A stretch of 64,000 nt of DNA from an uncultured bacterium. GTDB taxonomy: Bacteria > Cyanobacteriota > Vampirovibrionia > Gastranaerophilales > Gastranaerophilaceae. Below the pieces are notes generated by a model. It saw nothing but the letters and a program-made list of their open reading frames with translations. It ran no database searches and was not told the DNA's origin. The DNA lies in NCBI GenBank assembly GCA_949292185.1, contig CASEYP010000010.1:1-64000 (forward strand), read 5' to 3'. Within the stretch, counting starts at the first letter, position 1. Every line of letters begins with the position of its first letter. A program made the position numbers and the translations under genes. Of the stretch, positions 6,695 to 9,262 are shown piece by piece.

Positions 6695-7642
6695 ATGGAA
6701 AAAATTACAGGTTACAAACCAACAACAGAACAACTTGAAGCTGCAAAAGCACGTAGAGAAGCACAACAAGCAGAAAAAGCTGCAAGAAAAAATAAAGCAG
6801 GCGGCAAAACAGTAAAAAGCAAAGACGGCACATATAAATCCGTAACAGTTACACCAAAACAAGTTGAAGCAAAACAAAAACAAAGAATCTTAGAAAATCT
6901 AAAAAAAGAACAACATTTTGGCGGTAAAACAATTTTTGATGAAAAGACAGGTAAATATGTATCTCAATCAGCTAAAGAAGTAAAAGAAGCAGCTGAAAAT
7001 GCAGCAAAAACTACTACTAAAAAGACAGGACTTTTAAGCAAATTAGGAAAATTTGGCAAAAAAGCAGGTAAATTCGGACTAATTGGTTTAGGAGTTGCAG
7101 CCTTAGTTGGTGGAGGTATTTATGTATACAACAAATTATCAGGAAATGGCTCAACATCAGAAGAAGCTACACCTCTGAAAGAAAATTCAACTCCAGCTCC
7201 GGCAGATAAGTCAGATAGTGCAGAAAAAGCTGAAAAGACTCCAGCACCAGCTCCTGAGGAAAAAGCAGAAGAGACTGAAAAATCTGAAAAAACTCCGGCA
7301 CCAGCTCCTGAGGAAAAAGCAGAAGAATCTGAAGGATCTGAAAAAACTCCGGCACCAGCTCCTGAAGAAAAAGCAGAAGAAACTGAAAAATCTAAAGAAT
7401 CAAAAGAATCTGAGGAAGCTAAAGATGTACCAACTGAACACACAGTAGTTAAAGGTGATAACGTTTGGAACATTGCAAAACAACATTTGATCGATTTGAA
7501 AAACGATCCTAATTACAAACCAACTGATGCTGAAATTCTAAAACATACTAAAGAACTTATGGAATTGAATAATTTAGAATTTGAACCAGACGGCTACCAT
7601 GTAATTATAAAACCACAAGACAAATTGAAATTAGTAGCTTAG
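6695..7642 (+). CDS. Membrane-anchored LysM-domain protein with Pro/Ala/Glu repeats
   Basis: A 315-residue protein in four parts. The N-terminal ~110 residues are charged and Lys/Ala-rich. A glycine-rich single membrane span follows (FGLIGLGVAALVGGGIYVY). Next comes a Pro/Ala/Glu linker with three 18-residue repeats (EKTPAPAPEEKAEE core), and last a C-terminal LysM domain (HTVVKGDNVWNIAKQH ... DKLKLV) with a longer than usual middle. LysM binds GlcNAc-containing peptidoglycan, so an N-in/C-out topology placing LysM in the periplasm is likely. The ATG at 6695 follows GGAGG; an upstream in-frame TTG is less likely. It is flanked by two terminators, so monocistronic. Confidence 0.85.
   Translation: MEKITGYKPTTEQLEAAKARREAQQAEKAARKNKAGGKTVKSKDGTYKSVTVTPKQVEAKQKQRILENLKKEQHFGGKTIFDEKTGKYVSQSAKEVKEAAENAAKTTTKKTGLLSKLGKFGKKAGKFGLIGLGVAALVGGGIYVYNKLSGNGSTSEEATPLKENSTPAPADKSDSAEKAEKTPAPAPEEKAEETEKSEKTPAPAPEEKAEESEGSEKTPAPAPEEKAEETEKSKESKESEEAKDVPTEHTVVKGDNVWNIAKQHLIDLKNDPNYKPTDAEILKHTKELMELNNLEFEPDGYHVIIKPQDKLKLVA
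7232..7393 (+). repeat. Three tandem 54-bp repeats inside the LysM gene
   Basis: Units at 7232-7285, 7286-7339 and 7340-7393 each encode 18 residues with the core KTPAPAPEEKAEE. Differences between units are a few substitutions. Because 54 is a multiple of three, copy changes would alter linker length without a frameshift. Confidence 0.9.
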
Positions 7643-7662
7643 TTCAAAAAAAATAAAAAAAG

Positions 7663-7693
7663 AATCTACCCGATATGGGTAGATTTTTTTTTT
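7663..7693 (+). terminator. Rho-independent terminator
   Basis: A 9-bp stem (AATCTACCC / GGGTAGATT) with a five-base loop, followed by eight further T. It ends the LysM transcript. Confidence 0.9.
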
Positions 7694-7705: not shown

Positions 7706-7736
7706 TTGACATATTGTAAGGCATGCCTTACAATAT
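7706..7736 (+). promoter_or_regulatory. Promoter with an overlapping perfect 26-bp palindromic operator
   Basis: TTGACA (7706-7711) and TACAAT (7729-7734) are spaced by 17 bp, an almost ideal sigma-70 promoter. Bases 7711-7736 are a perfect palindrome (half-site ATATTGTAAGGCA, fused to its complement) that fills the whole spacer and the -10. A repressor bound there would block RNA polymerase. The gene starting 17 nt further on is a DtxR/MntR-type regulator, so metal-dependent autoregulation is the natural reading. Confidence 0.85.
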
Positions 7737-7753
7737 ATCAAAAAGGGTTTTAT

Positions 7754-8152
7754 ATGAAAACACAAACATTAACATCAGGACTTGAAGATTATCTTGAAGA
7801 GATCTATATTGCACACCTAAACCAAATACAATTAAAAGGTGCACAATTAGCAAGGAATTTAAAAATCTCAAGAGCTTCGGTTTCAGAAGCTTTAGCAAGG
7901 TTAGTATCAAAAGATTTAATAAAATACAACAGTTATGAAACAATCTCACTTACCAATAAGGGACTTATTGAAGCCAAAAAAGTCTATGATAAACATCGCA
8001 TATTAAAAACTTTTTTTGAAGAAGTTCTTGGAATTGACCCTCAAGAAGCAAGTGAAAATGCTTGTAAAATAGAACATATTATTTCTCAAAACATTCTTGA
8101 TAAAATGGCGCAATTTACAAAATCATACAAAAATACTCAAAAAGGAAACTAA
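7754..8152 (+). CDS. DtxR/MntR-family metal-dependent transcriptional regulator
   Basis: 132 residues from the ATG after AAAAGG; an upstream in-frame start would translate through the promoter. An N-terminal winged helix (LEDYLEEIY, then LARNLKISRASVSEALARL recognition helix) is followed by the metal-binding dimerisation domain (KHRILKTFFEEVLGI, CKIEHIIS). The C-terminal SH3/FeoA-like domain is absent, as in MntR. Putative ligands are Asp12, Glu15, His81, Cys104, Glu107 and His108. Asp12 is MntR-like, while the Cys-x2-Glu-His arrangement is DtxR-like, so Mn versus Fe cannot be decided. It is the first gene of a two-gene operon and is probably controlled by the palindrome at 7711-7736. Confidence 0.88.
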   Translation: MKTQTLTSGLEDYLEEIYIAHLNQIQLKGAQLARNLKISRASVSEALARLVSKDLIKYNSYETISLTNKGLIEAKKVYDKHRILKTFFEEVLGIDPQEASENACKIEHIISQNILDKMAQFTKSYKNTQKGN

Positions 8153-8157
8153 TAATA

Positions 8158-9180
8158 ATGTTAAAAATATCCTCAGTCGGAAAATACCTTGACCAACCTT
8201 TACTTACTGCAAAAATAAAAAAAAATATTCCAACAATATTAACACTTGGATGTTCTGCACTAGTTCTTGATCAAATAAAAAACAGCCCTAAAGAAGATAG
8301 AAAAAAAATAGGCTTAAAATCATCTATAATTTTAGGTTCAACTATTTTATCCGCAGTTAATGCTTCTAAAATTGCAAGTTTTATAACAAAACGAGAACTT
8401 CCAAAATCCATAAATGAAATAAAAAAATATAATACAGAAATTATATCAAATTATTTATCAAAAAATAAATTTGAAACAAATATAGAACAAATTTTGACAA
8501 AAGCAAAAGATAAAATTCTTTCTGTAAAAGAAATCGATAAGCTTAACACGAAACAGCACTCTGATATACTCAAAAAATTAATTCCGCCACCTGAAAATAT
8601 AAAAGCTAAAGACATATTTAAAGATATCGGATGGCTGTCAATATTTGGTGCAATACCTGTAGCAGGAGGCTTGGTTGGTGGTATAGTTGCGGATAAACTT
8701 ACTGAAAAAAATTGGAAACAAAAAATTCCAAATAAAATTAATGAAGGAATCTATCAATATCTTGCAAATATATTTTTATGCAACGTCGGAGCAGGAATTG
8801 CTTTAGGAATACTAGAAAAATGCAATATCAAATCAAAAGCCGCAAGATGCATTGGAATGGTCACAGGCATAATGATAACAGGTGTAATTGGAGGAAGTAC
8901 AATAGCAAATTATATTGGTAAAAAATTTATAAACCCAATTCTTTCACCTAACAAACAACAAGAAACAAGGACACCTGAATTATTAGATATCGGCTTACAT
9001 ACTGATGATATTGCAACTGTAGCTGTCTTATCCGGTCTAAAATGGATTGAACCGTCTTTACCTTTGTTATATTCAATCTCAGGATACAGAGCAGGAATCG
9101 GCTATAGAAATAAACATAACAAAAACAATATAAATGAAACTAACAAACAACAAGCTCATTTTTTACGCAGTAAGTGTTAG
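8158..9180 (+). CDS. Unknown polytopic membrane protein coupled to the DtxR-type regulator
   Basis: 340 residues, not recognised. Starts 5 nt after the regulator stop. There are several glycine-rich hydrophobic segments: about 25-40, 55-75, 160-185 (GAIPVAGGLVGGIVAD), 200-225, 232-258 (GMVTGIMITGVIGGS) and 283-310. Between them lie lysine-rich soluble stretches, notably residues about 80-150. It has no recognisable transporter signature. Being in an operon with a metal-dependent regulator, a role in metal handling is an inference only. It ends in a basic, Asn-rich tail, with a terminator overlapping the stop. Confidence 0.7.
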   Translation: MLKISSVGKYLDQPLLTAKIKKNIPTILTLGCSALVLDQIKNSPKEDRKKIGLKSSIILGSTILSAVNASKIASFITKRELPKSINEIKKYNTEIISNYLSKNKFETNIEQILTKAKDKILSVKEIDKLNTKQHSDILKKLIPPPENIKAKDIFKDIGWLSIFGAIPVAGGLVGGIVADKLTEKNWKQKIPNKINEGIYQYLANIFLCNVGAGIALGILEKCNIKSKAARCIGMVTGIMITGVIGGSTIANYIGKKFINPILSPNKQQETRTPELLDIGLHTDDIATVAVLSGLKWIEPSLPLLYSISGYRAGIGYRNKHNKNNINETNKQQAHFLRSKC

Positions 9181-9207
9181 GCAAAACTAACACTTCACCT
9201 TATTTTT
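9172..9207 (+). terminator. Rho-independent terminator
   Basis: AAGTGTTAG / CTAACACTT with loop GCAAAA; the stop codon lies inside the left arm. Followed by CACCTTATTTTTAC. Confidence 0.7.
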
Positions 9208-9229
9208 ACAGCCCCACAACTGTACACTA

Positions 9230-9262
9230 AATGAGGTGAAACAATTGTCTCACCTCATTTTC
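9230..9262. terminator. Second terminator between convergent genes
   Basis: A 10-bp stem (AATGAGGTGA / TCACCTCATT) with T-rich sequence on both sides, between the membrane protein gene and the next minus-strand gene. It can work in both directions. Confidence 0.7.

Follow-up and report, generated by a model that had tools for sequence, protein, structure and literature searches.

A DtxR-type regulator with a hybrid Asp/Cys metal site and its probable iron-responsive operon in Gastranaerophilales

We describe here a two-gene operon from a Gastranaerophilales MAG, that is, from a gut-dwelling non-photosynthetic relative of the cyanobacteria, found in a window of 64,000 nucleotides (the whole stretch of DNA that was analysed). 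Taken as a whole, the sequence data make it probable that this operon is autoregulated and iron-responsive, under a DtxR-family repressor. Comparison of sequences across the family shows a conserved operator, its overlap with the promoter, the membership of a small regulon and a near-invariant hybrid Asp/Cys metal site; from these we infer DNA binding, repression and a role of Fe(II) as co-repressor. The regulator gene (7754-8152) is followed, five bases further on, by a gene for a membrane protein (8158-9180). The regulon is of a type already known; the family of the membrane protein is uncharacterised. The features of the operon and of its borders are the following.

7655-7693, plus strand: terminator-like hairpin of the preceding LysM-protein gene, forming the upstream border of the operon (inverted repeat with a T run; the promoter scan gave a terminator on the minus strand)
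7706-7734, plus strand: promoter TTGACA (7706-7711), 17 bp spacer, TACAAT (7729-7734), an 11/12 sigma-70-like match with hexamers conserved together with the box in 73 loci
7711-7736, no strand: perfect 26-bp palindrome with the core operator TGTAAGG-CATG-CCTTACA at 7715-7732, the consensus being kept in 72/79 loci
7754-8152, plus strand: DtxR-family metalloregulator of 132 aa without C-terminal SH3/FeoA domain (Pfam PF01325 and PF02742, alignments, PDB alignments, 87 relatives)
8158-9180, plus strand: uncharacterised multi-span membrane protein of 340 aa, with invariant YQYLANIF-CN, HTDD and SGLKWIEP motifs, predicted all-helical (pLDDT 84, pTM 0.80)
9175-9192, no strand: second, imperfect operator-like inverted repeat TGTTAGG-CAAA-ACTAACA, overlapping the stop codon of the membrane gene; present in 31/80 loci, mainly close relatives
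9217-9226, plus strand: conserved non-coding motif CAACTGTACA between the second repeat and the terminator (alignment of 28 sequences; the motif in 26 sequences)
9229-9260, plus strand: terminator hairpin ending the operon (inverted repeat; hairpin and T-rich tail after the motif in 24/26 sequences)

Just 5' of the operon, at 6695-7642, lies the LysM-protein gene, whose product has a repeated TPAPAPEEKAEE-type linker.

Operator, promoter and regulon

The sequence TTGACATATTGTAAGGCATGCCTTACAATATATCAA (7706-7741) contains the perfect 26-bp palindrome inside a 36-bp near-palindrome with one mismatched pair. Lying 5' of the regulator gene, the palindrome occupies the spacer and the -10 of the TTGACA/TACAAT promoter, so that the -10 hexamer and the right arm of the operator are the same bases. 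The first-pass annotation had described it as filling the spacer and -10 of a near-consensus promoter, which the 11/12 match at 7706-7734 confirms. Comparable promoter matches are frequent by chance (13 found against 14.1 expected). Promoter and palindrome are nevertheless conserved jointly across genera: among 73 aligned sites, TTGACA is kept at five or six of its six positions in 68 and TACAAT is exact in 62. The operator consensus TGTTAGG-N4-CCTWACA is matched at 12 or more of its 14 positions 5' of the regulator in 72 of the 79 homologous loci, against a maximum of 10/14 in the controls (gene bodies and shuffles). The loci from which the consensus was derived overlap in species with these first test loci, the independent tests being the DUF2023 and feoAB promoters described below. 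Within the window's genus, 41 of the 46 genomes carry an operator match with at most one mismatch. We consider the palindrome functional because it is conserved across loci. The possibility, raised with the first-pass annotation, that it might be unique and not conserved is not what we found, and a unique chance repeat is ruled out by the cross-genus conservation. On the minus strand one could also draw the palindrome as a hairpin resembling a terminator, in which case it would merely be a bidirectional terminator or a chance hairpin. This explanation is extremely improbable and already contradicted by the comparative data, since the core bases, their spacing and both promoter hexamers are kept across many genera, and since the box is found again at the DUF2023 and feoAB promoters.

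The palindrome had also been proposed as a means to define a regulon. Only three sites in the window genome match with at most one mismatch: one in the operon promoter, one where the membrane gene ends and one in the promoter of a gene on another contig. A wide regulon, on the other hand, was not borne out, matches with two mismatches being no commoner than in the reversed control. The gene on the other contig encodes a DUF2023 protein (PF09633, 135 bits for a cut-off of 27). Across the family, a box of at least 11/14 stands just upstream of DUF2023 in 28 of 30 loci, the control maximum being 9, and these promoters often have tandem boxes about 25-37 bp apart. At three of them (L224, L225 and L227) two tandem boxes lie about 25 bp apart, which suggests two dimers at this target. 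DUF2023 is found within a few kilobases of the operon in some genera, and in the 660 kb of loci around the membrane gene almost all boxes of at least 12/14 are at the regulator, at the membrane gene (5' or 3') or at DUF2023. On contig C19 of the window genome (locus L221, 2141-3408), a second DUF2023 gene, which is box-less, and a ZIP-family transporter gene lie in divergent orientation.

In Bacteroidetes, DUF2023 belongs to the genes with the strongest induction under iron deprivation, 598-fold for BT0516 and about 160-fold in P. intermedia (PMC10434189). For the lineage studied here, the argument from DUF2023 to iron is an analogy drawn from another phylum. The fldA-DUF2023 low-iron locus of Bacteroidetes and the present regulon have in common DUF2023, a gene apparently controlled by iron; they differ in that no flavodoxin lies beside DUF2023 in the loci read here and that the regulator here is of the DtxR type.

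The other link to iron comes from feoAB. FeoB is present in 40 of the 191 genomes of the family. Genus g18 has the regulator, and none of its checked genomes gave a match to the membrane protein; here a box lies 20-31 nt 5' of a fused feoAB gene in each of the four genomes whose start is intact, so that feoAB takes the place of the membrane protein in the regulon. Outside g18, the box was absent from the FeoB promoter in every examined genome with an identifiable start, and a box at feoB as a general rule was rejected; that most of the family's FeoB genomes have no box there weighs against the iron reading.

The regulator and its metal site

That the regulator is a metalloregulator of the DtxR type is almost certain, and the metal that it senses is most likely iron, on account of the conserved operator, the iron-linked targets and the near-invariant hybrid site. 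Its start is the ATG at 7754; the TTG start at 7706 given in the list of open reading frames is an artefact, this position falling in the -35 box. Both Pfam domains score above their cut-offs, Fe_dep_repress with 40.6 bits (cut-off 26) and Fe_dep_repr_C with 67.2 bits (cut-off 27), and together with a palindromic operator overlapping target promoters they place the protein in the DtxR/MntR family. In an NCBIfam search it fell below every MntR and DtxR cut-off, the MntR models giving 72.7 and 62.3 for cut-offs of 153 and 138.

Alignments equate the ligands D12, E15, H81, C104, E107 and H108 with MntR D8, E11, H77, E99, E102 and H103. The first-pass annotation had seen in this site an MntR-like Asp combined with a DtxR-like Cys-x2-Glu-His, and the combination was found again in nearly all relatives. 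Asp12, which stands in place of Met10, is in the MntR D8 state, and Cys104-x2-Glu107-His108 is a DtxR-like motif in which Cys replaces Glu99 as in DtxR/IdeR. Of 87 relatives, a simple pattern search recovered the Asp/Glu/Cys pattern in 85, and of the remaining two L307 has a mis-chosen start and carries the pattern after all. The hybrid site is near-invariant in this family, genus g18 with its box at feoAB included; the survey for it covered the family and the PDB matches. The protein matches neither the IdeR/DtxR nor the MntR definition: of the sulfur ligands of IdeR/DtxR (Met10 and Cys102, as defined in PMC10317159) it has the Cys, as Cys104, with Asp12 for the Met, and of the MntR pair (Asp8 and Glu99 equivalents) it has the Asp, as Asp12, with Cys104 for Glu99. 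It also consists of the two DtxR Pfam domains only, without the C-terminal SH3/FeoA domain of IdeR/DtxR.

The comparison with the actinobacterial IdeR/DtxR proteins is close in several respects: DtxR-family domains, Cys-x2-Glu-His, the spacing of TTAGG-N4-CCTAA, a box over the -10 and iron-linked targets. In our reading, TTAGG-N4-CCTAA would correspond to a single dimer site within the IdeR box TTAGGTTAGSCTAACCTAA (box from PMC10317159), whose spacing it shares. IdeR boxes likewise overlap the -10 (PMC10317159). Unlike IdeR/DtxR, whose box is a 19-bp two-dimer site, the regulator described here has a single-dimer box, Asp for Met10, no SH3/FeoA domain, and replacements of Glu83 and His98 of the ancillary site (by-eye alignment). 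In the DtxR family, sulfur ligands, among them a Cys ligand, raise the selectivity for Fe(II), and exchanging sulfur ligands between members switches or broadens the metal response (PMC10317159).

The membrane protein and the 3' element

The regulator lies directly 5' of the membrane gene in 74 of 80 loci, so that the membrane protein is not found mostly away from such regulators, an outcome that the first-pass annotation had held against its own reading. Among the 150 regulator matches listed across the family, the membrane gene follows within 600 bp in 88 and precedes in the same orientation in 7, which makes about 95 of 150 adjacent overall. A box precedes the membrane gene at L144, L153, L158 and L173, four loci where 4 kb of sequence upstream were covered and no regulator is adjacent, and at L132, where the upstream sequence covered was 752 bases; this makes the gene a target in its own right and not a passenger.

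The membrane protein occurs in 37 of 89 sampled genera across the class Vampirovibrionia. It has three clear hydrophobic segments and up to three more marginal ones, and its invariant polar residues, which include C208, N209, H281, D283, D284 and E298, are possible metal ligands. As anticipated for a multi-span protein without known transporter signature, no match above cut-off was obtained in Pfam, NCBIfam, PHROGs or the PDB sequence search. More precisely, the FeoB G domain, Gate and FeoB_C gave no Pfam match, and no Nramp or Zip Pfam domain was found in the window protein or among the families listed for 57 homologues; assignment to NRAMP, ZIP, FeoB or another Pfam transporter was rejected. 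A viral origin was also rejected, IMG/VR containing no relatives. The one likeness noted, to DUF4112 (PF13430), is weak and sub-threshold: it concerns residues 156-196, about 40 residues only, with an E-value of 0.013 and 16.1 bits for a curated cut-off of 23.3. The structure prediction proposed earlier gave a confident all-helical AlphaFold model and no significant fold match in the PDB: Foldseek found no E-value below 0.1 (best 0.18), and the best VIA-align Z, 7.3, is a value that common helical arrangements also give. The absence of a fold match for this model is not evidence for a new fold.

Downstream, in the genus and near relatives, a non-coding element (9172-9260 in the window) presents in order the operator-like repeat, which spans or follows the stop codon of the membrane gene, the motif CAACTGTACA and the terminator. 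A known RNA was rejected, Rfam giving nothing above gathering scores for this element. Its layout would fit a small-RNA operator, a hairpin that stabilises the mRNA, or a combination of the two; an iron-regulated small RNA or a 3' UTR element is possible. In one relative, a desulfoferrodoxin gene (1057-1434 of L085) faces the membrane gene's 3' box in convergent orientation.

Proposed mechanism and alternatives

We propose the following mechanism. When iron is plentiful, the Fe(II)-loaded DtxR-family protein would bind TGTTAGG-N4-CCTWACA as a dimer, and the bound dimer would cover the promoter spacer and the -10 and block RNA polymerase. With less iron, the cell would make the repressor and the membrane protein and, from the second box elsewhere in the genome, the DUF2023 protein. 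The membrane protein would most likely act in acquiring iron or under low iron, perhaps being a ferrous-iron permease or the partner of one. The first-pass annotation had suggested a new metal transport or storage system on a metal-regulated operon. The metal-regulated operon, the hybrid site and the uncharacterised nature of the membrane protein have held up; transport is still a hypothesis, and storage is disfavoured because the promoter geometry predicts expression under metal scarcity.

Iron is favoured over an undefined metal by the targets, DUF2023 and, in one genus, feoAB, and by the IdeR-like box. A response to Mn(II) is possible, since the first ligand is Asp and not Met, as in Mn sensors, and one could thus see in the regulator an MntR-like manganese sensor and in the membrane protein a manganese importer or a low-manganese protein. 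Asp12, Glu15 and His81 agree with the MntR site, the closest PDB sequence matches are the Mn sensors SloR and MntR, the genome has no NRAMP manganese importer, and the short two-domain form is that of Bacillus MntR, the SH3 domain being often absent from MntR types. However, the relatives examined have Cys where MntR has Glu99, the targets include DUF2023 and feoAB and the box spacing is that of IdeR, and we consider manganese sensing improbable. A single Fur-family gene was found in the window genome (contig C7, 99091-99438, locus L320), which speaks against the iron reading; that only 15 of the 46 genomes of the genus have one speaks for it.

For the membrane protein, import of iron is our leading guess because the genus lacks FeoB and the window genome is also without NRAMP (no FeoB_C or NRAMP match); the idea that the protein moves iron is nonetheless tentative and less likely than not. 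A negative association exists between FeoB and the membrane protein (21/19 versus 115/36, Fisher p=0.005, phylogeny being ignored), and the genomes are assemblies from metagenomes or similar, in which the absence of a gene may reflect incompleteness. The protein resembles FeoAB in filling the operator-controlled place that feoAB has in g18, where it is itself absent; it differs in lacking both the G and the Gate domain and in showing no similarity in sequence to FeoB. An alternative that we hold for quite plausible, if short of an even chance, keeps the iron-dependent regulation and makes the protein no transporter at all, with a role in low-iron membrane remodelling, stress or iron sparing. 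Supporting this idea, no transporter family or fold was matched, as many as 21 genomes hold both FeoB and the membrane protein, and the ZIP-family transporter beside the box-less second DUF2023 gene could be the actual iron importer of the window genome. Against it, the box targets the membrane gene directly, also where this gene lies apart from the regulator, and feoAB holds its regulon place in the genus that lacks it. The boldest version of the import proposal, which we regard as unlikely, would see in the protein a bacterial ferrous-iron permease of a new class, one that in much of Gastranaerophilales has taken over from FeoB as the importer under iron regulation and is controlled by a natural Asp/Cys hybrid DtxR iron sensor, the second repeat and the 3' motif perhaps adding a small RNA arm.

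Returning to the iron-responsive operon, its regulation is well supported by comparative genomics and iron is the probable metal. In the literature searched, iron control in gut Melainabacteria appears to be undescribed. A single operator defines here a small regulon, which suggests that iron in this lineage is under a DtxR-type sensor and not under Fur. The natural Asp/Cys site offers a test case for ideas on Fe/Mn selectivity that have so far rested on engineered mutants, and DUF2023 is tied to iron starvation by a second, independent line. Finally, the membrane protein, which accompanies the regulator in most genomes and occurs in a genus without FeoB, is a good candidate for a missing step of iron acquisition.
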